Of a stretch of 64,000 nt of DNA, positions 13,225-55,519 are shown piece after piece. The DNA is from Noviherbaspirillum sp. L7-7A (GTDB lineage: Bacteria; Pseudomonadota; Gammaproteobacteria; Burkholderiales; Burkholderiaceae_D). The notes below the pieces were generated by a model. That model saw nothing but the letters and a program-made list of their open reading frames with translations. It did no database searches and was not told where the DNA came from. Each line of letters starts with the position of its first letter. Position 1 is the first letter of the stretch. The DNA is taken from assembly GCF_019052805.1 (NCBI RefSeq), contig NZ_JAHQRJ010000001.1, forward strand, positions 3,782,001-3,846,000, read 5' to 3'. The position numbers were made by a program, and so were the translations under genes.

Positions 13225-13243
13225 CTGTCGAGTTTCTTTACAG
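13225..13243 (+). promoter_or_regulatory. Enhancer-like dyad (copy 1) upstream of PEP-CTERM gene
   Basis: The 19-bp sequence CTGTCGAGTTTCTTTACAG has CTGT and ACAG as inverted ends. Two near-identical copies precede the other PEP-CTERM genes (53246 and 54715). Its first base lies 81 bases before the first G of the -24 element at 13306. The position suits an upstream activator site for a sigma-54 enhancer-binding protein. Confidence 0.75.
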
Positions 13244-13304
13244 AAAAGAAACGACTTTTTTGAATTTACAGGTAAGTGGTTGATTTAAGGAACTAATTTA
13301 TTTC

Positions 13305-13320
13305 AGGCACAATTTCTGCT
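13305..13320 (+). promoter_or_regulatory. Sigma-54 (RpoN) -24/-12 promoter, PEP-CTERM gene 1
   Basis: AGGCACAATTTCTGCT matches the consensus TGGCAC-N5-TTGCW at GGCAC and TGC, with exactly 12 bases between the G of GG and the G of GC. It lies 37 bases before the start codon of the downstream PEP-CTERM gene. Confidence 0.8.
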
Positions 13321-13356
13321 AAGAACTATAAAGGCAACTTTACCAGGGAGAATAAT

Positions 13357-14115
13357 ATGAATATTGTTACCACCATCAAACGCAGCCTGTCGATGCTTGC
13401 TCTTGCTGCATCCTCATTCGCCGCGCCCGCACATGCGGAACTGTTTCTGGATTTCAATGTGGATCAGGACGGAACAGGCTTTATCGCTGACAAAATGGTA
13501 TTTGGCTATCAAGAGATCCTGACTATTGATAATGGGTCCACTTTTAAAACGTCAGCCGTTGCAGCTGGGCCTGTCTTCTTGGGTGAGGAAGCGACTGTTC
13601 CCGTTGGATTCGATTTGAAGGTGTACGCGATTTTCACTGCAAGCGGTCAAGTTGTTGAGAATGGCGGCAAGTTCGTTGGGACCTCCGGCAGCATTCAGCT
13701 TTTTTTGGACAAAGGTAACAGGTCTATGTTCACGCTGCCGGCAATTGGCGGTGCTCCCATCAATGTAGTGAATGGTGAAACCGACGTGCTGCTCGCTTCT
13801 ACCGATACTTTCAAGTTTGGCTCGGGCTCATTGCGCCCCGGAAGCATTACAGAGGCAAATGGTGACTTTACGCTGACTTTTAATGACTTGGTGTTGACTA
13901 CGGATGGTATTGCTTACTTTACCGCTCCCTCGCCGTTCTATAAGGAGCTCACCATTGATGGCAATTTCAGCAGCACTGAGCCAATCAACCTCAATGGCAC
14001 AAGCTCGATCATCAAAGGCGCAGCTAATGTGTTCTTCGTGCCAGAGCCAAGTGCAGTAGCGCTGCTCGGCATTGCTCTGCTCGGTCTTGGCCTGAGCCGC
14101 CGCCGTCGCGTTTAA
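13357..14115 (+). CDS. PEP-CTERM surface protein (flocculation-associated PepA-like)
   Basis: A 252-residue exported protein. It has an N-terminal Sec signal peptide (residues 1-27, ending AAPAHA), a beta-rich body without recognised catalytic residues, and a C-terminal sorting tail: VPEP near residue 228, a hydrophobic helix, and the basic end SRRRRV. PEP-CTERM tails are recognised by a membrane exosortase that processes the protein during export of matrix glycans. The body resembles flocculation-associated PEP-CTERM proteins. No exosortase lies in this window. A GGGAG ribosome site precedes the ATG. Expression is predicted to need sigma-54 and an activator bound at 13225-13243. A stem-loop terminator follows at 14143. 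Confidence 0.88.
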   Translation: MNIVTTIKRSLSMLALAASSFAAPAHAELFLDFNVDQDGTGFIADKMVFGYQEILTIDNGSTFKTSAVAAGPVFLGEEATVPVGFDLKVYAIFTASGQVVENGGKFVGTSGSIQLFLDKGNRSMFTLPAIGGAPINVVNGETDVLLASTDTFKFGSGSLRPGSITEANGDFTLTFNDLVLTTDGIAYFTAPSPFYKELTIDGNFSSTEPINLNGTSSIIKGAANVFFVPEPSAVALLGIALLGLGLSRRRRV

Positions 14116-14142
14116 TTCTCGGTGCAGGGTAGGTAATCAGGG

Positions 14143-14170
14143 TGGGCCAGCATGTTGCTGGCCCATTTGC
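14143..14170 (+). terminator. Stem-loop terminator after PEP-CTERM gene 1
   Basis: A ten-base perfect stem (TGGGCCAGCA / TGCTGGCCCA) with loop TGT, followed by TTTGCTTTT, 28 bases after the stop codon. Confidence 0.75.
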
Positions 14171-14218
14171 TTTTAGTATCCGCAAAGATATACGCAGTAC
14201 TTAAGCTTGGCACCGGGC

Positions 14219-14515
14219 TCAGTCCAGTACGTCTCCCAGCAACTGCAATGTCCGCATCGTGATGAGGTCGGCATCCCAACAGGACTCGGAAAGGAAGAAC
14301 TGCAATTGCTGTACAGGCGCGGTCTGCGCCTCGACGAGCTGCTCGGCACCGGCTAATGCCGTGAGCGTCTTGGGCCGGTCGCGCGGTGCCAGTAGACCAG
14401 CAAGATAAGTGCGAAAGTGATGACGTTGCGCCAGCGAATGGAACGAGGGATCGAAGTGTGTTGCGTAATCTTCGAGTGGACCGGATGCTGGCGGGCAAGG
14501 ACGGCGGGCAGTCAT
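14219..14515 (-). pseudogene. IS701-like transposase, N-terminal fragment
   Basis: A 98-residue frame beginning MTARRPCPPASGPLEDY and continuing LAGLLAPRDRPKTLTALAGAE. This resembles the N-terminus of IS701-type DDE transposases, which are normally about 400 residues. The C-terminal catalytic part is missing, so this is a remnant. It lies between the PEP-CTERM gene and a decayed P450 tail. Confidence 0.6.
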
Positions 14516-14578
14516 GGCAGCATACCTCCTGCCCCTAGCCTAGACCATCAGTCCACTACTTTCAACAAACTACTACTA

Positions 14579-14948
14579 GGCGTCCTGGAAATTGATATTC
14601 ACGAATACTGCTAAATGGGCCTCGCTTTTCGACATGAGGTTGTTAAGCAACTGTAAGTACGCAGTGATGTTATCTGCAGGGATTGAATGCCAGATCCCAG
14701 AACAGAGACGCCTTGGCTTTAGCGACTCCGAAGTTTAAGTTGCAAGCTAACGGGGCCATTGTCAGTGTCAGCCGCTCTTGGACTAATTTACCGTCAGTTT
14801 AATCGTGAGTGCGGAAATAAAAATTTAGAAACATAGTAATCATTACTTTAAATTCTTTGAGCACAAAGAGCCTGCCGGACACAAACGCTGGACAGCGCCA
14901 ATAGGCGTACACGGGTTGCATGGATTCAGCTGCGAATGCCATCCAGCC
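14579..14948 (-). pseudogene. Decayed second copy of the P450 gene tail and its downstream flank
   Basis: This stretch aligns base by base, with roughly three quarters identity by eye, to 2498-2895: the last ~85 codons of the cytochrome P450 and about 140 bases beyond its stop. Landmarks shared by both include GCGTCCT-GAAATTGATAT at the left end, GATGTTATC, GCCATTGT and GGACACAAACGC. The heme-binding loop is frameshifted here, so no P450 is encoded. Orientation is the same as the first copy. Homology ends where the glycosyltransferase gene stops at 14949. Confidence 0.75.
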
Positions 14949-27337: not shown

Positions 27338-28684
27338 TTACGAGTAACGTTTGCTGGGGTCAAACATCGAGTCGGGCAAAGTAACCCCAAATGCTTGCAG
27401 CCTGTCTGCAAACTTAGGCCTTACACCGGTTGCGTGAAAATAGCCGACGATGTTGCCATTGTTGTCTACTCCTGTTTGCCGGTAGGCAAAAATTTCTTGC
27501 ATTGTGATGACATCGCCTTCCATCCCAGTAATTTCCTGGATGCTGGTGATCTTGCGCTTGCCATCGATCAGGCGCAGTCCTTGAATGACGACAGTAATAG
27601 CGGACGCGATTTGCTGTCGCATTGCTTTGTTGGGCAAATTCAGGTTTGCCATGCCTATCATGTTTTCCAACCGCGACACCGCGTCACGCGGCGTATTCGC
27701 ATGGATAGTTGTTAGTGATCCCTCGTGTCCGGTATTCATCGCCTGCAGCATGTCAACCGCTTCCGCGCCGCGCACTTCGCCGATTACAATCCGGTCGGGC
27801 CGCATCCGCAGGGCATTGCGGACCAGCGCTCGTGCAGTAACCTCTCCTTTGCCTTCGATATTGGCTGGGCGGGTTTCCAACCTTACTACGTGAGGCTGCT
27901 GCATCTGCAGTTCAGCCGCGTCTTCGATAGTGACGACACGCTCTGACGCAGGGATATAGCCGGATAGGATATTAAGCAGCGTAGTTTTGCCAGCGCCAGT
28001 GCCACCGGAAATAATCATGTTTACTTTGGCGCGGGCTAAGCCTTCTAGTAAAACCCCCATTTCCGGCGTAAGTGATTTCAAGTCATGGATCAAGTTTTCC
28101 ATTCTCAGCGGGATATGCGCAAACCGTCGAATTGACATCATCGGTCCATCCAGAGCAATAGGAGGAATGACAGCATTTACACGCGAGCCATCCGGCAATC
28201 TGGCATCCACCATCGGGCTTGATTCGTCGATACGCCGTCCCACCAGCGAAACGATCTTGTCAAGAATCCGCAGCAAATGCTGATCGTCAGTAAAGCTGAC
28301 ATTTGTCAGCTCAAGCTTTCCTTTGCGCTCAACATAGATCTTGTTGTACGAATTAACTAGGATATCTGAGACGGTTGGATCCGCCATTAGGAGTTCTAAT
28401 GGGCCAAATCCGAGCATTTCATGCTGAATGTCGCGTATGAGCATACGTCGTTCGATATCATTAACCGCCGCTTGCTCTTCGAGTAACAAACGTTCAACCA
28501 TTGTGCCGATTTCCTGCCGCAACTTTTCCGGCGCCAAGCTTTCTAGGACAGTTAAGTCGAATTTGTCAAGCAATTTTAGATGAATATCCGCTTTGATTTG
28601 CTTATAAGATTCACTCGGTCCTTGGCTTTGCTCGTGGGCCACAGGCATAGATTGAACCGCGTTCAGTTTTTCCCGAAATGACAT
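27338..28684 (-). CDS. tadA: Tad pilus assembly ATPase TadA (CpaF)
   Basis: A 448-residue secretion ATPase that powers Flp pilus assembly and probably retraction. The Walker A motif GGTGAGKTT is at residues 227-235. The Asp box ([11 protein letters not shown]) and the Walker B/His-box region ([37 protein letters not shown]) follow in order, as in CpaF/TadA. Length is normal for the family. It lies between tadZ and tadB. Confidence 0.95.
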
Positions 28685-28733
28685 GCCAACACCCTTTATC
28701 CGCTGAATCGTTTTTTAATAAATAAATAGTCTG

Positions 28734-29885
28734 TCATGTGCGCCGGAAAAGACGCCCAAACACACTGCGGCTTTCTTCCTGTTTCGGGCTTAAGGACAAT
28801 GCGAGTTCCGCCAGCTGCCTTGACACCATATTCGACCGCGCAAGTTGCAGAATAGGATTGCCGTGGTTGATAGACATACTTACTTCTTTGAAGGAGTTTG
28901 GCATCGTGTGCAGGACGTAAGGGCCGAGTGTGCGCCGCATATCGTCCAAGCCAATCTCTCCCTTTTTTTCAAAGCGATTGGCGATTAACTCGATTTTTTC
29001 AGCCGGATAACCGAGCGCATTAAACACCTTGAGCAATTTACGGGCGTTTCTGAGGTGCGGCAAACCAGCTTGTAGAACCGGAAAGATGCGTTCTGCACGG
29101 TCTAGTGCCTTGATGGAGACAGGATCGATAATTCGAGGCACGTCAACCAACACATAATCGTATTGAGTCACTGCCAGCTTCAGGATAGCCTCAACATGCT
29201 CGGGTTTGATTTCCATTGCCGTCGCCGGGTCTTCAGGGGCTGCTAGAATGCTTAAATTGGGAGCTGCTTTGACTGCGCTTGCTGCCAAGAAGGAAGCATC
29301 TAGGCGACTGATGTCATGAGCAAGGTCTGCGATAGTCACTGCTGGCGCACGGTCATGCACAAACGAGAGTGCGTCGCCGAATTGAAGGTTTAAATCAACT
29401 AGCAATACTGTCTTCGACTCTGCCAGTTGATAGCCAAAATTTGAGGCCAGGAAAGTTGCGCCGCTACCGCCTTTGCAAGGCATGAACGCCAATATCTTTC
29501 CTGATGTGTTGTTTCGTACTTTCGCTCGCTTTGAAAATATGCGGTTTACTGCCCCTTCCAATGCTTCTGCGCTTGCCGGTGAGGGAAGCACTTCGCGCAC
29601 TCCGGCTCGCATTGAGCTAATCAAAAATTCGGGGGTGTTGATAGCGCAAAGGAGGACTACTGCAATGCTTGGATGCTGCGTGGTCAGATGCTCTATCTGA
29701 TCCAGTTCCGCTGGGTCACAGCACATGCCTTCTACAATCATCAGGTCAGGCATCTCCTGTTCGGCAACAGTTCGCATTTTCGTCTTGCCGCCTTCAACCG
29801 TTACGACCGTATGAGACATAGCCTCCAACACCGTGCGGAGTTGTTGCAAATGGTCTTTGTTCGGTGAGATAGCTGCGATTTTCAT
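28734..29885 (-). CDS. tadZ: Tad pilus localisation protein TadZ (CpaE-like)
   Basis: A 383-residue protein with an N-terminal receiver-like domain (IAAISPNKDHLQQLRTVL ... DLMIVEGM) and a C-terminal ParA/MinD-type ATPase domain. The deviant Walker A reads KGGSGATFLASNFG, and LLVDLNLQFGDALSF and VLVDVPRII follow. TadZ proteins position the Tad machine at the cell pole. I set the start at ATG 29885 (MKIAAI) because the upstream open frame begins with a TTG in a poor context. It follows the tadE gene after 17 bases. Confidence 0.9.
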   Translation of the reverse strand: MKIAAISPNKDHLQQLRTVLEAMSHTVVTVEGGKTKMRTVAEQEMPDLMIVEGMCCDPAELDQIEHLTTQHPSIAVVLLCAINTPEFLISSMRAGVREVLPSPASAEALEGAVNRIFSKRAKVRNNTSGKILAFMPCKGGSGATFLASNFGYQLAESKTVLLVDLNLQFGDALSFVHDRAPAVTIADLAHDISRLDASFLAASAVKAAPNLSILAAPEDPATAMEIKPEHVEAILKLAVTQYDYVLVDVPRIIDPVSIKALDRAERIFPVLQAGLPHLRNARKLLKVFNALGYPAEKIELIANRFEKKGEIGLDDMRRTLGPYVLHTMPNSFKEVSMSINHGNPILQLARSNMVSRQLAELALSLSPKQEESRSVFGRLFRRT

Positions 29886-29902
29886 ATTCAATTTTCTGGA
29901 AG

Positions 29903-30346
29903 TTAAGAGCAAACCGCGGCGCTGTTGGGATCTTGGCCCATGACTTCTCTAGGAAGATAGGTTGAGAAAGCTGGCATCGGCATGGCCGCACGTAGACTGA
30001 ATCCAATAGGGGAAATCCACTGATAGTCCAAGTTTTGAATTTGAACCTTAACTCCTGCACAGTTCGTAGAGTTACAGGTTGTGCTAATGGCACCTGCCCC
30101 GTCGTACCAGTCGATTTTGACGTTAGCTGCAGTTAATTGAGGCAAATAATTCTTCATGTTTTTCAGTGCGATCTCTGATCCCCTGTCGCATACAACGGAT
30201 GCCCTCGCTCCCCAGCGTGTCGCCTCGTTTGCTGCATTCCAAGTCCAGAGCATGCGTGCGAAATCAATAATGCCGAGGAAAACGGTCAGGAACGTCATAA
30301 GGACCAGCGCAAATTCAACTATAGTGGCACCGACCTGATTTTTCAT
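29903..30346 (-). CDS. tadF: TadE-like pseudopilin (second of two)
   Basis: A 147-residue minor pilin with a short leader and prepilin cleavage site: MKNQVG/ATIVEFALVLMTF, with Glu11 at +5 after Gly6. The C-terminal domain contains four cysteines (VVCDRG, TTCNSTNCAG and the terminal VCS) that could form disulfides. Its ATG overlaps the stop of the upstream tadE-like gene by four bases. TadE/TadF are processed by TadV and are needed for pilus biogenesis. The symbol tadF is by position rather than proof. Confidence 0.85.
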   Translation of the reverse strand: MKNQVGATIVEFALVLMTFLTVFLGIIDFARMLWTWNAANEATRWGARASVVCDRGSEIALKNMKNYLPQLTAANVKIDWYDGAGAISTTCNSTNCAGVKVQIQNLDYQWISPIGFSLRAAMPMPAFSTYLPREVMGQDPNSAAVCS

Positions 30347-30795
30347 GATGGACTCCGCATCGTTGCGCTTATATCTGAAAAATTTACATTGCCAAAATTG
30401 ACCCCAAAAACACTACTTAGTAGTGGGACGAATTTGTAGCACGGCGGTGCCGAGTTGCCACAGCCCGCAATTTTGATCGTGACGGTATTAATGACCGGAC
30501 TTGTGCCGGCCGTCTGCCATGTAGGATCTTTTACTTGATTTGTACTCAAACCGAAAGCCAATGGGGAGCCAGTATTGGAAAGGCTGCCATAAACAACTAG
30601 GTTTTTTGCTTTGTCAGTATTGATTCCAGGATATTGGACTGAGAGATACCGCACAGCATCTCTTACTGATTTGGTCAAGGTGTTGTATTGGTAAAGGGCG
30701 CGGCCAAGCTCTGTGGTAATTAATGTCAGCACCAATAGCAATGGTAAAACCAATGCAAACTCTATCAACGCGACACCGTCTTGCTTCTTTCTCAT
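30343..30795 (-). CDS. tadE: TadE-like pseudopilin (first of two)
   Basis: A 150-residue minor pilin: MRKKQDG/VALIEFALVLPLLLVL, with Glu12 at +5 of the mature protein. A soluble domain follows with a Cys pair, IKIAGCGNSAPPCYKF. The ATG at 30795 is chosen because it gives a normal six-residue leader; the open frame extends upstream into tadG. It overlaps the next gene by four bases, suggesting coupled translation. Confidence 0.85.
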   Translation of the reverse strand: MRKKQDGVALIEFALVLPLLLVLTLITTELGRALYQYNTLTKSVRDAVRYLSVQYPGINTDKAKNLVVYGSLSNTGSPLAFGLSTNQVKDPTWQTAGTSPVINTVTIKIAGCGNSAPPCYKFVPLLSSVFGVNFGNVNFSDISATMRSPS

Positions 30796-30806
30796 GAGTG
30801 CCCCTT

Positions 30807-39240: not shown

Positions 39241-40140
39241 GCTTGGGTTACACAGCTATGGCATTGCAAACAGGTCAGCGGATTGCGCCACTCCATGCAA
39301 CAAGTGAGCGTCAGAGCGCTAACAGATTTAACAAACCTTTATTCAAATTGGGATTACTGCTAGTAGCCTGCGACGATCTTACCACTGGAAAATTAGCGCG
39401 GATAGCAAACGTTCTAAAAATTATATTTCTTCACAGATTGTTGAAATATTGAAACTTCCTTTGTCAACAAGAATGTGTTCCTTTCGCCTAAGAAAACAGA
39501 GGTTTGTTTCATACATGACTTGCTTTTAAATAAGAAAATGCCGCGATTTGCTGGCGTTGAATTGAAGCATAAGTCCAACACACATCAAGAAACTGCAGCT
39601 AGCGGCGACCTCAAACTTGGATGATTCAACGCTTTAATTTGACGCCGGGCTTAAAACACTAAGAACGTTAAATCTGGACGCTCGACGGATTTAATTTTTT
39701 AAGGGAAGTCTCACTGCGCACTGAATAGGCTGCCGCAGCTGAGCACCTGCCGGAAACTGAAAGCCTTCCCCGTTGGGGCAGCACCGATGTCGTCAAGAAA
39801 TCAACTTCCTTAAATATCTCAAGATTACCTTTAATTCTGTCTGTCGCCTTTCTGAAAGAAGGCACGAAAAACTAGAATTTAGCAAAAAACAGTACAAATC
39901 AACTAGTTGCGCGGAGATAAAAGAGGCATTTCATCCTATTAATAGGGGGACATAACAAGATTGTGTGGACATGGGTTGCTCTTTATTATCGTCGAAGCTT
40001 GTAGGAATGTGTGAACTGGCATGTAAGGGTTTGTCCTACCCGGAAAACAGATTGGAACGCAAGTTCGAAGCATTAACAAAACTGCCTGGCTGATGGCCGA
40101 GCTAAACGACACGAACATATTAAATATCAAAGAGATAACA
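39241..40140. other. Long AT-rich non-coding region between Tad regulators and the RTX adhesin
   Basis: About 900 bases without a convincing gene, between divergent units. It must hold the promoters of the histidine kinase (left) and the adhesin (right). Noted elements: an AT-rich stem TTAAATC...GATTTAA followed by TTTTTT at 39668-39700, which could be a terminator, and the perfect 12-bp palindrome CCTATTAATAGG at 39935-39946, about 195 bases before the adhesin start. A GAG lies nine bases before the ATG at 40141. Confidence 0.45.
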
Positions 40141-43100
40141 ATGGCCGACACTACATCAACTCCAGGAATCAACGTTTCGTTTTCCAATACCCCGCAAGCA
40201 ACGGCTGACCAGTTCACGTTTATTGAAGACCAAAAAGTCATCTTTACCCTGGATGTGATGGCGAACGACCTTGGCGGAAACGCAAAGACGCTCTACTCGC
40301 TCGATAACGGCGATCTGCAAGGTGACTTGCTCACCAAAGACACGGTCATCGGCGCGCTTAGCACGGAAAGGAGCGCCGGCGGTGCAACGATATGGATAGA
40401 GGATGGGAAGGTTGCGTATGACACTACGCTAATCCAGGACAAGATCCAGGCACTCGGGGCAGGAGCGGTTTTTAACGACAGCTTCACTTACGCTATCCGC
40501 TTGGGCAACGGCACTTTGAGCTGGGCAACTGCGAAAATAACTATCACTGGTACTAATGATGGTCCGGTTGCAGTGGCGGATACGGCGGCCGGTACCGAGA
40601 ACCAAACCCTGACCATCGATGTGCTGGCCAACGATACCGACAAGGACAACGGTCATGTGTTCACCTTGATGTCTGGTGTAGCTCCGCAAAACAAGGGCGT
40701 AGCTACCGTAGTGAACAACCAACTGGTATTTAACCCCGGTACGGACTTTGACCACCTCAAGGCAGGCGCCACTGAGACGGTGACCGTCAGCTACCTAATG
40801 AAGGACGACCAAGGCGCTGAATCGACCAGCACGGTAAGGATCACGATTACCGGCACCAATGATGCTCCGGTTGCTGTGGCAGACATTGCTTCTGGCACGG
40901 AAAACCAAAAACTGAGCATTGATGTGCTGGCCAATGATACCGACAAGGACGACGGCCATGTATTCACCTTGGTATCGGTGACTGCACCGCAGGGCAAGGG
41001 CGCGGCTACTATCGTGAACAACCAGCTGGTCTTTACGCCAGGCAGTGATTTCGACCACCTTAAGGCAGGCGCTACCGAGACGGTCACCATCAGCTACGTT
41101 ATGAAGGACGACCAGAATGCCGAGTCGTCCAGCACGGTGACGGTGACGATTACGGGCACCAATGACGGTCCGGTCGCTGTGGCCGATACGGCAGCCGGTA
41201 CGGAAAACGCTACGCTGAGCATTGATGTGCTGGCCAACGATACTGATGCCGATGACAACCACAGCTTTACGCTGCTGTCAGGCAGCGCTCCGACCGGCAA
41301 AGGTACGGTTGCTGTCGCAGACGGCAAGCTGGTGTTCAACCCGGGTACGGCATTCGACCACCTGGCCGCTGGTGCGACTGAAGTGGTCACGCTGAACTAC
41401 ACCATGAAGGACGACCAGAACGCCGAGTCGTCCAGCACGGTGACGGTGACGATTACGGGCACCAATGACGGCCCGGTCGCTGTGGCCGATACGGCAGCCG
41501 GTACGGAAAACGCTACGCTGAGCATTGATGTGCTGGCCAATGATACCGATGCCGATGACGGCCACGTGTTCACGCTGGTGTCGGGCGCTGCGCCGACCGG
41601 CAAAGGTACGGTTGCTGTCGCAGACGGCAAGCTGGTGTTCAACCCGGGTACGGCATTCGACCACCTGGCCGCTGGTGCGACTGAAGTGGTCACGCTGAAC
41701 TACACCATGAAGGACGACCAGAACGCCGAGTCGTCCAGCACGGTGACGGTGACGATTACGGGTACCAACGATGGTCCGGTCGCTGTGGCCGATACGGCAG
41801 CCGGTACGGAAAACCAGACGCTGGCCATCGATGTGCTGGCCAACGACACGGATGCCGACGACGGCCATGCCTTCACTCTGGTGTCGGGCACAGCACCGAC
41901 CGGCAAGGGTAGCGCCAGCGTCGTCGACGGCAAGCTGGTGTTCAACCCGGGCACGGCATTCGACCACCTGGCCGCTGGTGCGACTGAAGTGGTCACGCTG
42001 AACTACACCATGAAGGACGACCAGAACGCCGAGTCGTCCAGCACGGTGACGGTGACGATTACGGGCACCAATGACGGCCCGGTCGCTGTGGCCGATACGG
42101 CAGCCGGTACGGAAAACGCTACGCTGAGCATTGATGTGCTGGCCAACGACACGGATGCCGACGACGGCCACGTGTTCACGCTGGTGTCGGGCGCTGCGCC
42201 GACCGGCAAAGGTACGGTTGCTGTCGCAGACGGCAAGCTGGTGTTCAACCCGGGTACGGCATTCGACCACCTGGCCGCTGGTGCGACTGAAGTGGTCACG
42301 CTGAACTACACCATGAAGGACGACCAGAACGCCGAGTCGTCCAGCACGGTGACGGTGACGATTACGGGCACCAATGACGGCCCGGTCGCTGTGGCCGATA
42401 CGGCAGCCGGTACGGAAAACGCTACGCTGAGCATTGATGTGCTGGCCAACGATACTGATGCCGATGACAACCACAGCTTTACGCTGCTGTCAGGCAGCGC
42501 TCCGACCGGCAAGGGTAGCGCCAGCGTCGTCGACGGCAAGCTGGTGTTCAACCCGGGCACGGCATTCGACCACCTGGCCGCTGGTGCGACTGAAGTGGTC
42601 ACGCTGAACTACACCATGAAGGATGACCAGAACGCCGAGTCGTCCAGCACGGTGACGGTGACGATTACGGGCACCAATGACGGCCCGGTCGCTGTGGCCG
42701 ATACGGCAGCCGGTACGGAAAACCAGACGCTGGCCATCGATGTGCTGGCCAACGACACGGATGCCGATGACGGCCATGCCTTCACTCTGGTGTCGGGCAC
42801 AGCACCGACCGGCAAGGGTAGCGCCAGCGTCGTCGACGGCAAGCTGGTGTTCAACCCGGGCACGGCATTCGACCACCTGGCCGCTGGTGCGACTGAAGTG
42901 GTCACGCTGAACTACACCATGAAGGACGACCAGAACGCCGAGTCGTCCAGCACGGTGACGGTCACGATTACGGGTACCAACGATGGTCCGGTCGCTGTGG
43001 CCGATACGGCAGCCGGTACGGAAAACCAGACGCTGGCCATCGATGTGCTGGCCAACGACACGGATGCCGATGACGGCCACGTGTTCACTCTGGTGTCGGG

Positions 43101-44607
43101 CACAGCACCGACCGGCAAGGGTAGCGCCAGCGTCGTCGACGGCAAGCTGGTGTTCAACCCGGGCACGGCATTCGACCACCTGGCCGCTGGTGCGACTGAA
43201 GTGGTCACGCTGAACTACACCATGAAGGATGACCAGAACGCCGAGTCGTCCAGCACAGTGAAGATTACGATTAGTGGCACCAACGATGCGCCAACTGTTG
43301 TTGCTAGCGCCACAACTGCGACCGGCTCTATCGTGGAACTGGCGGCGCAGACAGGTTCAACAGTTTCGGACAACGTAGGAGGAAGAATTGGCTTCGCGGA
43401 CTTGGATCTGATTGATAGTCACTCGGTGAACCAAGCAGTTCCAGTGTTTGTTTGGTCCGGCGGAACGCTCAGCGCTGGCCAGATTGCAGCGCTAACAAGC
43501 GCAAGCACGCTTTCACTAAGTATGTCGGATAGTACTAATTCGGGCACGGGAGCGGTCGACTGGCACTATAGTGCACAAGACAAAGCGTTTGACTTCTTAA
43601 GCGCTGGCCAAACATTGTCTATCACGTATGGCATAAATATTGACGATGGACATACCAGCGTAGTCAATCAAAATGTATTGGTGACGGTCACCGGCACTGA
43701 TGAGCCAGTCAATAACAGTGCTCCTACCGACATAATCTTTACCGCCGCAGCACCGCCGAGTGGCAATACATTACCGGGGGCCAGCCAGACCATCGCGTCG
43801 TTATCCACAGTCGATCCTGATGCCGGTGACACATTCAGCTATGCGTTTGATATCAATGGAGCAGGAACATTAGCTACCACCGTTTCGAACAATGGTACTC
43901 AGTTCAATTTAAATGGGTCAACGCTCATAAGTGATGGTCTGCGTGCTAGCACGACTTACACACTCCAAATACGTTCAACCGATGCTCATGGGTTGTCAAT
44001 ACAAGAAACATTGAACATTATCACTGGCTCTACTAGTGGGAGTGGTGACGTCTTGCCCTCTGCATCAGGGGCAAATGATCCCATAGCGGCAGGAGATGAC
44101 ATTCTTTATGGGCTCGCCGGTGGCAATGGCAGCAATATTGACATCCTTTATGGCGGCGGGGGTAATGACACTTTATATGGTCAAGATGGGCAGGACCGGC
44201 TAGAAGGAGGTGCCGGCAACGATTTGTTAATCGGTGGAGACGGCAGCGACACCTTCGTCTTCAATACCACGCTTAATGCTTCCTCCAATGTCGATCATAT
44301 TAGCGATTTTGAGTCAAACGCGATTGATAGCATCTTTTTGTCGAGATCGGTATTTACTAATCTGTCTACTACGAGTGGAACGCTTAATGCTAGCGAATAC
44401 GCGGCAGTAACTAATGGAACAGGAGCTACCAGCACGTTTGCGGCCGGCGTCCATATAATATACGACAGCCAGACAGGCAATTTGTTTTACGATGCCGATG
44501 GAGGCAACACGACAAGCGGCCGTACCCTTTTCGCCGTACTGGATAATCATCCTGTAGCCGGGTCTGCGAGCACCGCGTTTAACAACGGCGATATTCAGGT
44601 CGGTTAG
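40141..44607 (+). CDS. Giant RTX adhesin with nine tandem VCBS-type repeats
   Basis: A 1488-residue secreted adhesin. After a unique N-terminal region (residues 1-136) come nine tandem 101-residue repeats (137-1045) of the VCBS/cadherin-like type. Each contains TGTNDxPVAVAD, IDVLANDTD, LVFNPGTAFDHLAAGATE and KDDQNAESSSTV; the NDTD and DxxN acidic positions probably bind calcium. A divergent repeat and a cadherin-like domain follow. Near residue 1320 lies a short RTX block (GGGGNDTLYGQDGQDRLEGG) and then a type I secretion-like C-terminus. The next two genes encode the matching type I ABC transporter and adaptor. No Sec signal is present. The start at 40141 has the better ribosome site; an ATG at 40093 would add 16 residues. 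Likely role: surface attachment or biofilm. Confidence 0.88.
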   Translation: MADTTSTPGINVSFSNTPQATADQFTFIEDQKVIFTLDVMANDLGGNAKTLYSLDNGDLQGDLLTKDTVIGALSTERSAGGATIWIEDGKVAYDTTLIQDKIQALGAGAVFNDSFTYAIRLGNGTLSWATAKITITGTNDGPVAVADTAAGTENQTLTIDVLANDTDKDNGHVFTLMSGVAPQNKGVATVVNNQLVFNPGTDFDHLKAGATETVTVSYLMKDDQGAESTSTVRITITGTNDAPVAVADIASGTENQKLSIDVLANDTDKDDGHVFTLVSVTAPQGKGAATIVNNQLVFTPGSDFDHLKAGATETVTISYVMKDDQNAESSSTVTVTITGTNDGPVAVADTAAGTENATLSIDVLANDTDADDNHSFTLLSGSAPTGKGTVAVADGKLVFNPGTAFDHLAAGATEVVTLNYTMKDDQNAESSSTVTVTITGTNDGPVAVADTAAGTENATLSIDVLANDTDADDGHVFTLVSGAAPTGKGTVAVADGKLVFNPGTAFDHLAAGATEVVTLNYTMKDDQNAESSSTVTVTITGTNDGPVAVADTAAGTENQTLAIDVLANDTDADDGHAFTLVSGTAPTGKGSASVVDGKLVFNPGTAFDHLAAGATEVVTLNYTMKDDQNAESSSTVTVTITGTNDGPVAVADTAAGTENATLSIDVLANDTDADDGHVFTLVSGAAPTGKGTVAVADGKLVFNPGTAFDHLAAGATEVVTLNYTMKDDQNAESSSTVTVTITGTNDGPVAVADTAAGTENATLSIDVLANDTDADDNHSFTLLSGSAPTGKGSASVVDGKLVFNPGTAFDHLAAGATEVVTLNYTMKDDQNAESSSTVTVTITGTNDGPVAVADTAAGTENQTLAIDVLANDTDADDGHAFTLVSGTAPTGKGSASVVDGKLVFNPGTAFDHLAAGATEVVTLNYTMKDDQNAESSSTVTVTITGTNDGPVAVADTAAGTENQTLAIDVLANDTDADDGHVFTLVSGTAPTGKGSASVVDGKLVFNPGTAFDHLAAGATEVVTLNYTMKDDQNAESSSTVKITISGTNDAPTVVASATTATGSIVELAAQTGSTVSDNVGGRIGFADLDLIDSHSVNQAVPVFVWSGGTLSAGQIAALTSASTLSLSMSDSTNSGTGAVDWHYSAQDKAFDFLSAGQTLSITYGINIDDGHTSVVNQNVLVTVTGTDEPVNNSAPTDIIFTAAAPPSGNTLPGASQTIASLSTVDPDAGDTFSYAFDINGAGTLATTVSNNGTQFNLNGSTLISDGLRASTTYTLQIRSTDAHGLSIQETLNIITGSTSGSGDVLPSASGANDPIAAGDDILYGLAGGNGSNIDILYGGGGNDTLYGQDGQDRLEGGAGNDLLIGGDGSDTFVFNTTLNASSNVDHISDFESNAIDSIFLSRSVFTNLSTTSGTLNASEYAAVTNGTGATSTFAAGVHIIYDSQTGNLFYDADGGNTTSGRTLFAVLDNHPVAGSASTAFNNGDIQVG
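40549..43275 (+). repeat. Nine tandem copies of a 303-bp coding repeat
   Basis: Repeat boundaries at 40549, 40852, 41155, 41458, 41761, 42064, 42367, 42670 and 42973 are exactly 303 bp apart. Copies 1 and 2 are more diverged; copies 3-9 are almost identical, with a few alternating variant blocks (ENATLSID or ENQTLAID; DDNHSFTLLSGSAP or DDGHVFTLVSG; TVAVADGKL or SASVVDGKL). Copy 7 joins the first half of copy 3 to the second half of copies 5, 8 and 9, evidence of recombination between repeats. Confidence 0.95.
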
Positions 44608-44616
44608 TAACTACAT

Positions 44617-44646
44617 TGCCACCTACCCTGGAAAGGTGGGTGGCAA
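44617..44646 (+). promoter_or_regulatory. Intercistronic stem-loop between adhesin and ABC transporter genes
   Basis: TTGCCACCTACC and GGTGGGTGGCAA can pair over 12 bases (one T-G wobble) around the loop CTGGAAA, nine bases after the adhesin stop. There is no T-run afterwards, so it looks more like an mRNA-stabilising or attenuating hairpin than a full terminator. A GTG that would open the transporter frame (44636) lies inside the stem. Confidence 0.65.
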
Positions 44647-44668
44647 AATTACTAGAACGTCACTTATC

Positions 44669-46366
44669 ATGAAATCTCTCCTGAAGCTCGTTAAGCGCCC
44701 GCTCGCGTTCATCGCCTGCTTTTCTTTTTTCACCAACCTGCTGTTGCTGGCCCCGGCGCTATTCATGCTGCAGGTCTTTGACCGTGTGCTAACCAGCCAG
44801 AGCCAAGAAACCTTGCTGGTGCTGTTGCTTGGCATGGCGATTGCGCTTAGCCTGTCACTGCTGCTCGACTACCTGCGTAGCCGCTTGCAGGGTGTGGCTG
44901 GCAACATGGTGGCCGAGCAACTCTCGCCAATAGTGGCGCGTGTGATGCTTGCCCGTTCGGCCAACAATGCCGGGCAGGGAAGTGCCGAAGGCTTGCGCGA
45001 TGTCGCTGCGCTGCGCAACTTGCTGTCTGCACAAGGGCTACTGGCTATCTTCGATACACCATGGGCAGTGGTCTATGTCGCGGTAATCTGGCTCGCCCAT
45101 CCAGTGCTAGGCATGGCTGCTCTAGCTGCCTGCGTGCTGATGCTTGCCCTGGCCATACTCAATGACAGAATCACTCGCAAGAACATCGAGGCGCTGCAGC
45201 AGGAAGCAGCAAAGTCTACTCGCTACCTTGAAGCTTCAATGCAAAATGCTGAAGTGGTGCAGTCGCTCGGCATGGGCGGCGCGCTGATTTCGAATTGGCG
45301 CCAGCTTAATGCGAAAGTCACGGCATTGCAGCGACCCACCGCCCAGAAGTCAGTGGCCATGGCCGCCGCCACCCGGGCCACCCGGCAGATGGTGCAGGTG
45401 CTGATGCAGGCACTGGGCGCTTATCTTGTCATTACAGGCGAAGGCACTGCAGGCATCCTGGTAGCGACAACTATTCTGTTGGGCAAGGCCCTGTCGCCAG
45501 TCGAGCAAATCGTTGGCAGCTGGCGTGTACTGGCCGAAGGTCGGCTGGCGTATGCCCGCACCAGTGCTCTGCTCGCCACGGTCGGCAGCCAGCCGGAACG
45601 GATGAAGTTGCCGGCGCCGACCGGCAGGCTGCAGGCCAGCGGCCTGGTCTTCCGGCCGCCAAGGAGCGAGCGCATGATCCTGGCGGGCGTGTCGTTGAGC
45701 CTGGAGCCGGGCGAGGCAATGGCCATCGTAGGCTCCAGCGGCGCCGGCAAGTCGACTCTAGTGCGCCTCCTGACCGGACTCTGGCAGCCGAACGCCGGTG
45801 TGGTGCGTCTCGATGGCGTCGACCTGGCGCAGTGGGACCGGGAAGAGCTGGGCCCATGGTTGGGATACGTGCCGCAGGACGTCGAGCTGTTTGCCGGCAC
45901 GGTCGCGGAAAATATTGCACGGCTGGGAACGGTGGACGCGGAAGCAGTGGTGCGCGCAGCGCAGCGTGCCGGCATCCACGACATGGTGCTGGCTTTGCCT
46001 AATGGATACGACACCGTGATTGGCAGCACTGGCGTGATGCTGTCGCCAGGCCAACGCCAGCGCATCGCCTTGGCGCGCGCGCTGTATGGCGACCCCAAGC
46101 TGCTGGTGCTGGACGAGCCCAATTCCAACCTCGACGGCGCCGGCGAGCTGGCGCTGGGCGAAGCGCTGAAGGCGTTGAAGGGCGAGGTCACGGTGGTCGT
46201 GGTGACTCACCGCAGCACTCTGGTGCAGCACATGGACAAGATGCTGGTACTGGAAGCCGGCCGCGCCCAGCACTACGGCACCGTGGCCGAAGTGCTGCAG
46301 GCAATGCGGCAGCCGGCCGGTGCGCAGGTCGTGGCGATGCCGCGCGCTGCGCAAGGGGCTGCGTAG
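44669..46366 (+). CDS. Type I secretion ABC transporter (PrtD/HlyB-like permease-ATPase)
   Basis: A 565-residue fused permease and ATPase that exports the RTX adhesin with the adjacent adaptor. The N-terminal half has the transmembrane domain starting RPLAFIACFSFFTNLLLLAPALFMLQVFDRVL, typical of the PrtD group, which lacks the C39-like peptidase domain. The ATPase has Walker A GSSGAGKST, signature LSPGQRQRIALARAL and Walker B LLVLDEPNSNLD, followed by the His switch VVVTH. I prefer the ATG at 44669 because the alternative GTG at 44636 is buried in a hairpin. No TolC gene is nearby; the outer-membrane channel must be encoded elsewhere. Confidence 0.92.
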   Translation: MKSLLKLVKRPLAFIACFSFFTNLLLLAPALFMLQVFDRVLTSQSQETLLVLLLGMAIALSLSLLLDYLRSRLQGVAGNMVAEQLSPIVARVMLARSANNAGQGSAEGLRDVAALRNLLSAQGLLAIFDTPWAVVYVAVIWLAHPVLGMAALAACVLMLALAILNDRITRKNIEALQQEAAKSTRYLEASMQNAEVVQSLGMGGALISNWRQLNAKVTALQRPTAQKSVAMAAATRATRQMVQVLMQALGAYLVITGEGTAGILVATTILLGKALSPVEQIVGSWRVLAEGRLAYARTSALLATVGSQPERMKLPAPTGRLQASGLVFRPPRSERMILAGVSLSLEPGEAMAIVGSSGAGKSTLVRLLTGLWQPNAGVVRLDGVDLAQWDREELGPWLGYVPQDVELFAGTVAENIARLGTVDAEAVVRAAQRAGIHDMVLALPNGYDTVIGSTGVMLSPGQRQRIALARALYGDPKLLVLDEPNSNLDGAGELALGEALKALKGEVTVVVVTHRSTLVQHMDKMLVLEAGRAQHYGTVAEVLQAMRQPAGAQVVAMPRAAQGAA

Positions 46367-46415
46367 GCGGCGCCAGCGGATCAACCAGACAAAGTGAAAT
46401 AACGAAGAGAGCAGC

Positions 46416-47753
46416 ATGACAATTTCTATGCGGGCCGATGCGGCCAATGACCATTTAATTCCCCATATCGACGAGGCGCGCAGCTTGGCGCGCTGGGGCG
46501 GTGTGGTCGTACTGGGAGGCCTGTTGCCGGTGCTGGCCTGGATGGCGCTGGCGCCGCTTTCGTCGGCGGTGGTCGCGCCGGCGTATGTCAAGGTCGATCT
46601 GAACCGGCGCCCGGTGCAGCATGCCGAGGGCGGCATCGTGCGCGAGGTGCTGGTGCGCGACGGCCAGCGGGTGCAAAAGGGCGAGCCGCTGCTGGTGCTG
46701 GGCGACGTCGCGGTGGACGCCGACCGGAACCGCTTGGACTACCGGGTGCTGGCCGAGCGCGCCAGCCTGGCGCGGCTGGATGCGGAACAGTCCATGGCAA
46801 AAACCGTGGATTTTCCAGCTGAGGTGTTGGCAGGGGCAAAAACTGATGCACGGCTGCAGGCACAGGTGGCAAAAGAGCAGTCACTGTTTCAGACCCGGCG
46901 TCAGGCCTTGACTGGGCAAGCGGCGCTGCTGCGGTCGCAGCGTGAGAAAATTGCTGAAGAGACAATCTTTCTGCAAGCCCAGATCAAGCAGGCGATGGAA
47001 TCGATGGCATTCCAAAAAAACGATTTGGAGAACAATCGCAAGCTGTTGAAGGATGGATATATCGCGCCCACGCGCATCGCGCAGCTGGAAGGCATAGTGG
47101 CCGATTACGGCGTGAAGCTTGAAGAGCGGCGTTCGGAACTGGCACGCGCTGGACAGCGCATGATCGATACCGATTTGAAAATCCGCTCGCTGGAAAGCGA
47201 ATACCGTCAGCAGGCCAGCGACCAGCTTAAGGTCACTGCCGCACGGGTTTCCGAAATAGAGCAGGAGCAGCGCAAGTCCATCGACGCATCGGCGCGTCAG
47301 GTGATCGTCGCACCCGCGGATGGTGAAGTAATGGATCTGAAATATGCAACACCGGGTGTAGTCATTCCGCCGCGCGAAACGATTGCAGACATCGTGCCGG
47401 ACGACACCCGTCTGCTGACCGAAGCGCGGATCCGCACAGAGGATATCAACCGGGTCCACAAGGGCCAGGAAGCGGATATCCGCTTTACCGCCTTCAAGGC
47501 GCGCACCACACAATTGGTGCATGGCAAGCTGGTCTATGTCTCAGCCGACCGCCTCGTTGATCGGGCCACTAATGTGCCTTACTACACAGCGCTGGTCGAA
47601 GCGGACCCGGCATCGCTGGCATCCGCGGGGGATCTGAAGCTGCTAGCCGGCATGCCGGCCGAAGTGTATGTCAAGGGAGAGGAGCGCACGCCGCTCCAGT
47701 ACCTGGCCGAGCCGGTGACGCAAGTGCTGCGACGCGCCGCGCGGGAACGCTGA
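46416..47753 (+). CDS. Type I secretion membrane-fusion protein (HlyD/PrtE family)
   Basis: A 445-residue periplasmic adaptor. It has one N-terminal membrane helix (about residues 27-48), the biotinyl-lipoyl-like half motif VQHAEGGIVREVLVRDGQRVQKGEPLLVL, a long coiled-coil region (about 110-285) and the second half, ARQVIVAPADGEVMDLKYATPGVVIPP. It ends with the beta-barrel part LLAGMPAEVYVKGEERTPLQYLAEPV. It lies 49 bases after the ABC transporter and completes the inner-membrane part of the secretion machine. Confidence 0.92.
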   Translation: MTISMRADAANDHLIPHIDEARSLARWGGVVVLGGLLPVLAWMALAPLSSAVVAPAYVKVDLNRRPVQHAEGGIVREVLVRDGQRVQKGEPLLVLGDVAVDADRNRLDYRVLAERASLARLDAEQSMAKTVDFPAEVLAGAKTDARLQAQVAKEQSLFQTRRQALTGQAALLRSQREKIAEETIFLQAQIKQAMESMAFQKNDLENNRKLLKDGYIAPTRIAQLEGIVADYGVKLEERRSELARAGQRMIDTDLKIRSLESEYRQQASDQLKVTAARVSEIEQEQRKSIDASARQVIVAPADGEVMDLKYATPGVVIPPRETIADIVPDDTRLLTEARIRTEDINRVHKGQEADIRFTAFKARTTQLVHGKLVYVSADRLVDRATNVPYYTALVEADPASLASAGDLKLLAGMPAEVYVKGEERTPLQYLAEPVTQVLRRAARER

Positions 47754-53245: not shown

Positions 53246-53264
53246 CTGTCGAAAATTCTTACAG
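53246..53264 (+). promoter_or_regulatory. Enhancer-like dyad (copy 2) upstream of PEP-CTERM gene
   Basis: CTGTCGAAAATTCTTACAG, with perfect CTGT/ACAG ends, starts 80 bases before the first G of the -24 element at 53326. It shares CTGTCGA and TTACA with the copies at 13225 and 54715. Confidence 0.78.
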
Positions 53265-53324
53265 AAAACATTTTTAATAAGAAATATTTGTTTTAAGTAA
53301 CTGTTTATGAAGAGAATTATTTAC

Positions 53325-53340
53325 TGGAACAAACATTGCT
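53325..53340 (+). promoter_or_regulatory. Sigma-54 (RpoN) -24/-12 promoter, PEP-CTERM gene 2
   Basis: TGGAACAAACATTGCT matches TGGCAC-N5-TTGCW with one mismatch and correct GG-to-GC spacing. It lies 52 bases before the start codon. Confidence 0.85.
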
Positions 53341-53391: not shown

Positions 53392-54075
53392 ATGAACATC
53401 TCGAAAATCAAAAATGTCTTGGCTACCGGCGGTTTCGTTCTCGCGTCGCTGGCAGGAAGCACTGCAGCAAACGCCAGTGTAATTTACGAGTTTTCTAACG
53501 CAGGTCTGTATGGCACTACCAGTGCAAACGCGACCGGAATTTTTGCAACGGCAGAGTTCACTGATGTTGTAAACGGCGTGCAGTTAGTAATGAAGGTGCT
53601 CAGCAGTCTTAGTCCTAGCCAGTATGTAAATGACTGGGCCTTCAACCTGAACACCACAGGTAATACGTCAATCAGCACCGTTACTTCAAAAGGAGGCGTC
53701 AGCGCGCCGACAGTTACGAAGACGCTCGATAACGACAGCTTTGGAAACGCGAGCAACAGCGGCTTATTCGATCTCGTTTTCAATTTTGCCGCTTCCGGCT
53801 CTAACAAGGATCTCAGCCAGAATGGGTCGTCAACCTATTTGATCACAGGCACGAATCTTAGCTCGGACGACTTCCTCATTGCGAACAGCAAGAATATTTA
53901 TGCGTCCATTCAAGTCGAAGGAGGCAATACGAACAATACCTATATCCGACAGGTCAATTCGGGTGGCGTCGCGAGCGCCGCCGTGCCTGAGCCGACCATG
54001 GTGGCACTGATGGGTCTCGGTCTGCTGGGCTTCGCTGCAGCACGCCGTAAGTCAGCAAAAACCAAGAACGCATAA
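53392..54075 (+). CDS. PEP-CTERM surface protein 2
   Basis: A 227-residue exported protein of unknown specific function. It has a Sec signal peptide (residues 1-28, ending TAANA), a Ser/Thr/Asn-rich beta-type body and a C-terminal sorting tail: VPEP near residue 198, hydrophobic helix, then ARRKSAKTKNA. It should be processed by an exosortase encoded outside this window. A ribosome site (AGGGAAACGAAA) precedes the ATG. A sigma-54 promoter and the shared dyad lie upstream and a strong terminator directly downstream, so it is a self-contained transcription unit. Confidence 0.87.
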   Translation: MNISKIKNVLATGGFVLASLAGSTAANASVIYEFSNAGLYGTTSANATGIFATAEFTDVVNGVQLVMKVLSSLSPSQYVNDWAFNLNTTGNTSISTVTSKGGVSAPTVTKTLDNDSFGNASNSGLFDLVFNFAASGSNKDLSQNGSSTYLITGTNLSSDDFLIANSKNIYASIQVEGGNTNNTYIRQVNSGGVASAAVPEPTMVALMGLGLLGFAAARRKSAKTKNA

Positions 54076-54095
54076 AAGCCCTACCTGCATGTTTG

Positions 54096-54122
54096 AAGCC
54101 CGTCACGAGCGGGCTTTTTTTC
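54096..54122 (+). terminator. Rho-independent terminator after PEP-CTERM gene 2
   Basis: Stem AAGCCCG / CGGGCTT followed by a run of T, 20 bases after the stop. Confidence 0.88.
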
Positions 54123-54269
54123 GTTTGTTAGTCCAAACTTGTTTATTAGCGCAGGTTGCTATTGAAGTCGCACCAACCATGACCGGTCTTCACTTGCTGG
54201 TCGACAGCACCGGCATCAAGATGCCATAACTAGGCCGGTAGGAAGCCAAGCTCTGTCTTTACCTTATTT

Positions 54270-54700
54270 ATGCAACAAAGCCTATCGAAACTGAATCGCA
54301 TTTGCCGTGATGCACAAGATGGCGGCGCCACTATCAAGGCGCTGGCTGCACGAAAGATCGAGGTGATCGTGCTACAGCCTGGGGAAACTCGACCTGATAT
54401 CGAGTGCGAGCAAACTGATGTTGGAGATGCTGGCGGCGGTTACCGAGATGGAGTGGGATCTGCTGGTGGCGCGAACACAGTCTAGCCTGGCCATGGCGAA
54501 GACAGCGAGTAGGGCACTCGGGCGTCCATCGAAGACTAGCACTGAGCAACGCACGGTGATTACCGCAGATCACGCGGCTAGCGTGCGTGTAAGTGAGCTG
54601 GCGCGTCGGTTTGCCGTTTCTCGGGCCAACGTCTTCAGCATCGTAAAGCCGCTGAATGAAGATGCAGTCGATAATCACCTTTCACAATTGATGAAACCGC
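54270..54700 (+). pseudogene. Serine recombinase (resolvase/invertase) remnant with frameshift
   Basis: Two frames cover the end of a resolvase. The first (from 54270) reads RICRDAQDGGATIKALAARKIEVIVLQPGE, part of the catalytic domain. After a shift near 54400 the second reads MLEMLAAVTEMEWDLLVARTQSSLAMAKTASRALGRPSK and SVRVSELARRFAVSRANV, the long helix and the C-terminal helix-turn-helix. The N-terminal part with the active-site Ser is absent. Its end abuts the enhancer-like dyad of the next PEP-CTERM gene. Confidence 0.75.
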
Positions 54701-54714
54701 ACTACAAAAAAATT

Positions 54715-54733
54715 CTGTCGAGAAACTTTACAC
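54715..54733 (+). promoter_or_regulatory. Enhancer-like dyad (copy 3) upstream of PEP-CTERM gene
   Basis: CTGTCGAGAAACTTTACAC lies 81 bases before the first G of the -24 element at 54796, the same spacing as copy 1. The last base breaks the perfect dyad. AATTCTGTCGA is identical to copy 2 over eleven bases. Confidence 0.77.
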
Positions 54734-54794
54734 CATCAGGTTCTAACAATACTTGATTCTCAGTAAGTGTTTGAAAAGAAACGAAAAAAGTTTC

Positions 54795-54810
54795 TGGCAT
54801 GCAAAATGCT
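54795..54810 (+). promoter_or_regulatory. Sigma-54 (RpoN) -24/-12 promoter, PEP-CTERM gene 3
   Basis: TGGCATGCAAAATGCT matches the consensus at TGGCA and TGCT with the exact GG-to-GC spacing. It lies 35 bases before the chosen start codon. Confidence 0.85.
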
Positions 54811-54844
54811 AATCTGTGGACAAGATCACTCACCGGAGCCAAGC

Positions 54845-55519
54845 ATGAATGCATTCAAATTTGTCCGTCCCATGGCACTTGCTGCCGCCCTTCTCTGCAG
54901 CGCCACAGCGGCGAATGCGTCGTTGGTCTACACCCTGATGGATTACTCCAACAGCGTTAAGCAGCAAAACGTTTCTCTGGGCACCGTAACATTGACGGGG
55001 TCTACGAACGAAGTCGATGTCACTGTTTCGGTGAACCCTAACTATTTTGTAGAGACGGGCTCGCATTCCTTGTTTGCGTTTAATTTGGCTTCCTTGGATA
55101 GCGGCTATACATTCACTGATATTTCACCGCTTGTGCCTAATGGCGGCACCAACAATACCCCTGCTCCACTGTTTACCGTAAACAAACAAAATGTTACCCA
55201 GCCAGGATTCGGTAACTTTACGTACGCTGCCGATTGTGTGCTGTGCGGCAATGGCTCGAGCAATGCGCAATACACCACGATTTCCTTTACAGTGCACGGG
55301 AACGGCATTACCGAAAGCAGCTTCCTGGCAAATGCCAACGGTTACCTTTTCGCGACTGACATCTATGACACCACAACGAGGCTGACTGGTTTGATCGGTT
55401 CGAAAGGCACGGAAGGCGGCGGAGATGGCGCGGGCAATGTGCCTGAACCAGGAACAGTCGCGCTGCTTGGCTTGGGCCTGTTTGGTTTTGCAGTAGCACG
55501 CCGCAAGTCTGTAAAGTAA
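54845..55519 (+). CDS. PEP-CTERM surface protein 3
   Basis: A 224-residue exported protein without a recognised body domain. It has a signal peptide (residues 1-25, ending TAANA), a beta-rich body with one close Cys pair (AADCVLCGNG), and the sorting tail VPEPGTVALLGLGLFGFAVARRKSVK. The ATG at 54845 is chosen because the signal peptide starts there, GGAG precedes it, and the sigma-54 promoter at 54795 would lie inside any longer frame. A terminator follows at 55538. Its tail and signal resemble those of PEP-CTERM gene 2, but the bodies differ. Confidence 0.87.
   Translation: MNAFKFVRPMALAAALLCSATAANASLVYTLMDYSNSVKQQNVSLGTVTLTGSTNEVDVTVSVNPNYFVETGSHSLFAFNLASLDSGYTFTDISPLVPNGGTNNTPAPLFTVNKQNVTQPGFGNFTYAADCVLCGNGSSNAQYTTISFTVHGNGITESSFLANANGYLFATDIYDTTTRLTGLIGSKGTEGGGDGAGNVPEPGTVALLGLGLFGFAVARRKSVK

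Follow-up and report, generated by a model that had tools for sequence, protein, structure and literature searches.

Candidate PrsR-Type Enhancer Sites at Whole Helical Turns from the Sigma-54 Promoters of PEP-CTERM Genes in Noviherbaspirillum sp. L7-7A and Related Genomes

Three PEP-CTERM Genes with a Common Upstream Arrangement

The stretch of DNA analysed here (hereafter, the window) comprises 64,000 nucleotides of Noviherbaspirillum sp. L7-7A (NCBI RefSeq assembly GCF_019052805.1, contig NZ_JAHQRJ010000001.1, positions 3,782,001 to 3,846,000 of the forward strand). It carries three PEP-CTERM genes, each preceded by a predicted -24/-12 promoter for sigma-54 polymerase and, further upstream, by an exact copy of TGTCGRN5YTTACA, a candidate enhancer site for the response regulator PrsR that corresponds to motif 1 of Haft et al. 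(2006; PMC1569441). Across the genomes that we compared, such a site sits almost solely at whole helical turns from its sigma-54 promoter. The features at the three loci are as follows.

13226..13242, + strand: candidate 17-bp PrsR-type enhancer site (Haft motif 1), copy 1; exact TGTCGRN5YTTACA
13273..13285, + strand: IHF-like block YAANNNNTTGATW by consensus match, 0 mismatches, at -33 from GG
13305..13320, + strand: predicted sigma-54 -24/-12 promoter AGGCACAATTTCTGCT, GG-N10-GC, GG at 13306
13357..14115, + strand: PEP-CTERM gene, PepA equivalog (NF033554, 140.7 bits, cut-off 80)
53247..53263, + strand: candidate 17-bp PrsR-type enhancer site, copy 2; exact TGTCGRN5YTTACA
53294..53306, + strand: weak IHF-like block by consensus match, 2 mismatches, at -32
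53325..53340, + strand: predicted sigma-54 promoter TGGAACAAACATTGCT, GG-N10-GC, GG at 53326
53392..54075, + strand: PEP-CTERM gene (TIGR02595, 24.1 bits, cut-off 16)
54716..54732, + strand: candidate 17-bp PrsR-type enhancer site, copy 3; exact TGTCGRN5YTTACA
54764..54776, + strand: IHF-like block by consensus match, 1 mismatch, at -32
54795..54810, + strand: predicted sigma-54 promoter TGGCATGCAAAATGCT, GG-N10-GC, GG at 54796
54845..55519, + strand: PEP-CTERM gene (TIGR02595, 29.8 bits, cut-off 16)

The genes at 53392 and 54845 score 37.7 and 30.8 with the PepA model NF033554, below its cut-off, and are therefore termed PEP-CTERM and not PepA genes. An earlier reading of this DNA, made from the letters alone (the sequence-only reading), had described the upstream motif as a 19-mer, CTGTCGA-N5-YTTACAS, located 81, 80 and 81 bp before a GG-N10-GC promoter. 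We verified these positions and spacings: the 19-mer is exact at 13225, 53246 and 54715, each time on the plus strand, and the first G of the -24 GG follows its initial C at 81, 80 and 81 bp (79-80 bp when counted from the motif T), with 62, 61 and 62 nt between the end of the motif and the 16-nt promoter box in copies 1, 2 and 3, respectively. Copies 1 and 3 end in TTTACA, while copy 2 differs by one letter (CTTACA). Base composition predicts 0.0018 exact 19-mers for the window, versus three observed; the probability of a promoter-like site (up to two mismatches) in the 78-83 slot of one motif site is 0.002; and the 18-mer CTGTCGAN5YTTACA occurs without mismatch in the whole genome solely at the three window loci. 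A chance origin of the window motifs is ruled out by the expected counts and by controls in which the motif is read backwards.

The Motif and Its Regulon in the Noviherbaspirillum Genome

In an alignment of 127 promoters, the conserved core is the 17-mer TGTCGR-N5-YTTACA, and the flanking bases carry little information. The outer bases of the 19-mer are not conserved (C at position -1 in 28% and G at position +17 in 17% of these promoters), which rules out a 19-bp core. The dyad is imperfect, with half sites TGTCGR and, on the opposite strand, TGTAAR.

The genome (5.22 Mb in three contigs) contains 15 perfect copies of TGTCGRN5YTTACA versus 0 of the backwards-read control, and a promoter is located 30-200 bp downstream of 11 of the 15. 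When one mismatch is allowed, the excess is small (51 matches versus 35 for the control). The blocks recur on all three replicons. The genome encodes a single PrsR (756 bits, cut-off 502.6), adjoined by PrsK (680.9 bits, cut-off 300), as well as an exosortase and ihfA (above cut-off). The TIGR02595 model yields 15 PEP-CTERM matches; 11 of these are preceded by the motif (0-2 mismatches) and by a promoter with its GG at 79-81 bp from the motif T, in keeping with the initial claim of a sigma-54 promoter plus a PrsR-type candidate enhancer before PEP-CTERM genes. Since six more promoters of like build occur in addition to those 11, the three-gene regulon first proposed is too small. The genes behind these six, all further regulon candidates, are the following.

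G000:C1:833813, - strand: acyltransferase-3 protein, full PrsR-type promoter
G000:C1:1771298, - strand: OpgC-like protein, full PrsR-type promoter
G000:C2:332869: VPLPG-type PEP-CTERM protein (L063), matched by Pfam PF07589 and not by TIGR02595
Cache/PAS protein (Cache match below the Pfam cut-off)
Small open reading frame about 4.5 kb from prsR
Open reading frame without assigned identity

The OpgC-like and acyltransferase-3 proteins are candidate exopolysaccharide-modifying members of the regulon. The case of L063 indicates that the promoter grammar can reveal PEP-CTERM proteins overlooked by the sorting-signal model TIGR02595. At another locus (L052; G000:C1:1425385-1425401, - strand), a PEP-CTERM gene has a forward motif copy with one mismatch, and 133 bp upstream of that copy lies a perfect motif in reverse orientation; on its own side, the reverse motif has no promoter near the expected distance. 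One PEP-CTERM gene, L038 (G000:C3:252144-252212, - strand), has in-frame stops, and its examined 1.5 kb of upstream sequence contains no motif.

Co-Distribution with PrsR

We sampled 200 genomes of the same order and called PrsR by profile cut-off: 48 are above it and 152 below. The PrsR-positive genomes harbour 445 perfect sites versus 34 control matches, and the PrsR-negative genomes 175 versus 98. With six motif-rich drafts set aside, the other 146 PrsR-negative genomes are at background (105 sites versus 97 for the control). At least two sites are present in 46 of the 48 PrsR-positive and in 31 of the 152 PrsR-negative genomes (Fisher p 5e-22), and the motif is thus co-distributed with PrsR. 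In 13 motif-rich or motif-bearing PrsR-negative genomes, a search for PrsR above the cut-off returned none; one PrsR-like fragment is situated at a contig end. Two drafts of one genus (G169 and G131) have 14 and 5 perfect sites, respectively, and no PrsR above the cut-off in either; a second activator or assembly gaps are possible explanations.

Helical Phasing and Polarity

Sigma-54 promoters follow the consensus TGGCAYN5TTGCW. We accepted as promoter any sequence with at most two mismatches to this consensus, GG and GC being fixed, at 30-200 bp downstream of a perfect site. The first set was not random and consisted of 269 distinct perfect sites, part of those among the matches listed. A promoter is present at 141 of these 269 sites, versus 7 of 269 for a complement-only control. 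Broken down by origin, it is found at 128 of 214 sites in 22 PrsR-positive genomes, at 13 of 31 sites in four of the six motif-rich PrsR-negative drafts (with spacings as elsewhere) and at 0 of 24 sites in 24 other PrsR-negative genomes. The motif is oriented toward its promoter: on the far side, promoters occur at 6 of the 123 sites with enough flanking sequence (at 36, 40, 43, 91, 187 and 188 bp).

For the held-out test, period (11.1) and phase (80.7) were fixed from the first set, and 25 further PrsR-positive genomes were scored; some of their genera are common with the first set, and one promoterless site had already been in it. A promoter was found at 57 of 88 new sites, and for the 55 located at 40-165 bp, the mean cosine is 0.73 (p 7e-15). 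Removal of the main peak leaves 26 promoters, still phased (p 5e-7), and so are nine further promoters taken from named prsR loci (p 6e-4).

The combined 198 motif-promoter distances, from 56 genomes or loci, fall in six clusters with means of 69.9, 80.8, 91.7, 102.5, 114.3 and 124.0 bp; few lie outside the range of these clusters, and the bins at 61-67, 74-77, 84-89, 96-98 and 106-111 bp are empty. The combined period is 11.08 bp (genome bootstrap 10.82-11.36, with 0.2% of bootstraps below 10.55). Upon removal of similar loops, 159 of the 198 promoters stay, with a period of 11.12. Spacing by whole helical turns is a better description than the "fixed spacing" of the sequence-only reading.

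We also looked for phasing among tandem motif copies: the 31 pairs show none, with R 0.12 at 11.1 bp, and when periods of 9-13 were compared, the strongest was 9.0 (R 0.40), at the edge of the range. The lack of mutual phasing of tandem copies argues against a background periodicity.

A Third Block before the Promoter

The consensus of IHF is WATCAANNNNTTR. In the promoter-aligned profile, a third block, YAANNNNTTGATW, occupies -33 to -21 from the first G and agrees at each letter with the complement of the IHF consensus. The DNA between this block and the promoter is A/T-rich; the spacer has 64% A+T versus 53% upstream. With up to two mismatches, the block is present at -34..-32 in 51 of 127 promoters, compared with 4 when the consensus is read backwards and 31 when one of its letters is changed; in the new data, the corresponding counts are 23, 4 and 12 of 61. 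With up to one mismatch, they are 27, 1 and 6 of 127 and, in the new data, 8, 0 and 4 of 61. Among loops of 55-96 bp, the block at -34..-32 occurs in 49 of 101 (first set) and 21 of 46 (new data). Of the 17 promoters in the Noviherbaspirillum genome, 11 show it at -33..-31 when at most one mismatch is allowed, and 14 when two are. The third block is thus present in a large minority of promoters and has been replicated at one position only; given its occurrence in 51 of 127 and 23 of 61 promoters, the IHF-assisted build is not general.

Interpretation and Alternatives

The three window genes are, with high probability, members of the known regulon of PEP-CTERM genes controlled by PrsK/PrsR and RpoN, in which PrsR would occupy the 17-mer, IHF would bend the DNA at many promoters and a phased loop would connect regulator and polymerase. 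PrsK would activate PrsR, and phosphorylated PrsR would then bind the 17-bp site TGTCGR-N5-YTTACA; at many promoters, IHF may bend the DNA between this site and the promoter, and PrsR could thereby contact the sigma-54 polymerase over a short loop, some seven turns in length. ATP hydrolysis by PrsR would open the promoters of PepA-type surface proteins and of some polysaccharide-modifying enzymes. Because the loop is short and stiff, selection would confine the PrsR site to a single helical face, and loops of another length would be retained solely where the difference amounts to whole turns (about 11 bp each). PrsR binding, IHF binding, looping and expression are what we infer from the DNA letters. 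We lean, with some reserve, towards the more specific proposal that a rigid loop joins the promoter to the polar PrsR site, in many cases with a bend site some 33 bp before the promoter, and that the length of this loop evolves solely in steps of about 11.1 bp and not 10.5 bp.

A number of observations weigh against this interpretation. The motif is absent at four of the 15 PEP-CTERM matches in the genome, namely at the broken gene L038 and at the low-scoring L047, L048 and L049. Six motif-rich drafts have no PrsR above the cut-off (G005, G082, G084, G100, G137 and G169); in G082, a contig end falls inside a PrsR-like gene, whereas the other five have no such explanation. Conversely, no more than one site (0 or 1) is present in two PrsR-positive genomes. 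By the criteria used, 174 of 381 perfect sites have no promoter in the 30-200 bp interval, some of them being distal tandem copies or situated in PrsR-negative genomes. The freely fitted period is 11.25 in the first set versus 10.70 in the held-out genomes, and we therefore state the period as about 11. As regards the third block, 76 of 127 and 38 of 61 promoters lack it at -34..-32, window copy 2 has a weak version, and the consensus changed in one letter still finds matches in 31 of 127 and 12 of 61 promoters. In long loops (97-129 bp), the block appeared at -44/-43 in 11 of 26 cases of the first set and in 0 of 15 in the new data; a one-turn outward move of the block in longer loops was consequently dropped.

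The most serious alternative concerns this block, which may reflect intrinsic A-tract curvature, a stretch preferred by HU or an upstream contact of the polymerase instead of an IHF site. We consider this unlikely on balance, though well worth keeping in mind, and a little less unlikely since the -44/-43 position failed in the new data. It would fit the A+T-rich spacer, the absence of a match at -34..-32 in over half of the promoters and the hits of the altered consensus; the letter-by-letter agreement with the complement of the IHF consensus argues for IHF, as do the orientation of the block and its locked position at -33/-32 in both data sets and in this genome. Moreover, IHF commonly sits between enhancer and sigma-54 promoter, according to the passages available of a published account (PMC7962754). 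Far less probable is it that a different enhancer-binding protein binds the motif, at least in some genomes, and that PrsR merely co-occurs. The six motif-rich genomes without PrsR above the cut-off do encode lower-scoring relatives of the NtrC family, and in the four that were sampled, the promoters have the same spacings as elsewhere. On the other hand, the presence of PrsR splits motif-rich from background genomes, the six exceptions are drafts of 60 to 370 contigs (among them the one with a truncated PrsR-like gene) and a Desulfovibrio regulator hit predicted PEP-CTERM targets in DAP-chip, as far as the accessible text of that work goes.

Two further explanations have very little in their favour. 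A recent duplication of promoter DNA, and not selection, could account for the blocks common to the window loci, of which two are neighbours and all three belong to PEP-CTERM genes; the sequences flanking the three copies were compared only by eye. Such an origin is most improbable in view of the recurrence of the blocks on all three replicons of the genome and, over 56 genomes or loci, in 198 promoters, and of the persistence of the period in the 159 promoters that stay once similar loops are removed. It is equally hard to credit that the way in which promoters were sought, or a periodic A/T content, produced the 11-bp period artificially. A weak period of about 11 bp is general in bacterial DNA, as described in the available portion of one source (PMC4132750), but the complement-only controls returned few promoters (7 of 269 and 1 of 112), tandem copies are unphased and entire distance intervals of 3-7 bp are empty.

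Helical phasing and the IHF-like block refine the published prediction into a promoter grammar: an oriented 17-mer, a spacing of whole turns (about 11 bp each), a bend site near -33 in many cases and then the -24/-12 promoter. In an exosortase-bearing genome, this grammar predicts members beyond the PEP-CTERM genes, such as the OpgC-like and acyltransferase-3 enzymes and the Cache/PAS protein. The promoters also constitute a large natural data set on the evolution of short enhancer loops. If the rigid-loop proposal is true, betaproteobacteria and relatives carry a natural helical ruler, and sequence alone would suffice to read from it the supercoiled twist of DNA in the wild.

Other Genes of the Window

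The sequence-only reading had placed the three promoters amid remnants of a deacetylase, an IS5-like element and a resolvase. Four nearby open reading frames compared with Pfam gave one sub-threshold MarR match only, no broader search for debris having been made, and the description was not confirmed. Elsewhere in the window, the stretch 40093-47750 encodes a protein of 1504 aa, with an RTX repeat and cadherin-like/Big_9 repeats, and after it an ABC exporter and an HlyD protein; the large protein looks like a type I secreted adhesin. On the minus strand, a T2SSE-type ATPase and a secretin with a pilus N-terminal domain (27338-34810) look like part of a Tad/Flp pilus or secretion cluster.

Comparison with Known Systems

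The sequence-only reading had not been aware of a definition of the site. Haft et al. (PMC1569441), in the text available, had already described motif 1 and motif 2: of 167 PEP-CTERM genes of proteobacteria, 99 are preceded by a 17-nt motif ending in TTTACA, a spacer (mean 62.8 nt, standard deviation 10.6, range 32-92) and a sigma-54 motif. They predicted PrsR as the motif binder because PrsR, PrsK and PrsT share the phylogenetic profile of the motif. The window loci resemble that cis-element in the 17-nt motif, the spacer of about 63 nt, the sigma-54 site and the long upstream regions of the PEP-CTERM genes. The interpretation is therefore right in kind but was published in 2006; our addition is the quantitative architecture, with replicated phasing. 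The passages of the 2006 paper at hand give the spacer as mean, deviation and range and do not contain the whole-turn phasing, polarity or IHF-like block found here, and a search count for "IHF" in the paper returned none. In the open-licence literature, so far as its accessible parts extend, we found no report of phasing or IHF at PEP-CTERM promoters; in the same body of texts, the cis-site and activator predicted twenty years ago have been tested only in part.

Aquincola tertiaricarbonis pepA is RpoN1-dependent, with a mapped start and a mapped -24/-12 promoter (TGGCAC/CTGCTT); upstream lies what its authors term a "previously predicted enhancer" (2023; PMC9850573). The window gene at 13357 is likewise a PepA equivalog by NCBIfam; the Aquincola experiment was made in another species, and the passages on it do not include PrsR binding.

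Natural loops spaced about 11 bp apart are known from the 61 LuxO-regulated sigma-54 enhancers of Vibrio qrr genes, at about 80-120 bp (PMC4740811, as far as its text was available), so that phasing of natural sigma-54 enhancers is not new in kind. Unlike the PEP-CTERM promoters, the qrr promoters respond to LuxO and belong to one genus, and no IHF-like block is noted in the passages concerned. For lac repressor loops in vivo, fitted helical repeats of 11.08, 10.95 and 11.60 bp per turn are given in the accessible part of the report (PMC1762422). These values are close to the 11.08 obtained here but come from repression loops in E. coli and not from natural enhancers; the phasing of the PEP-CTERM promoters agrees with loop mechanics.

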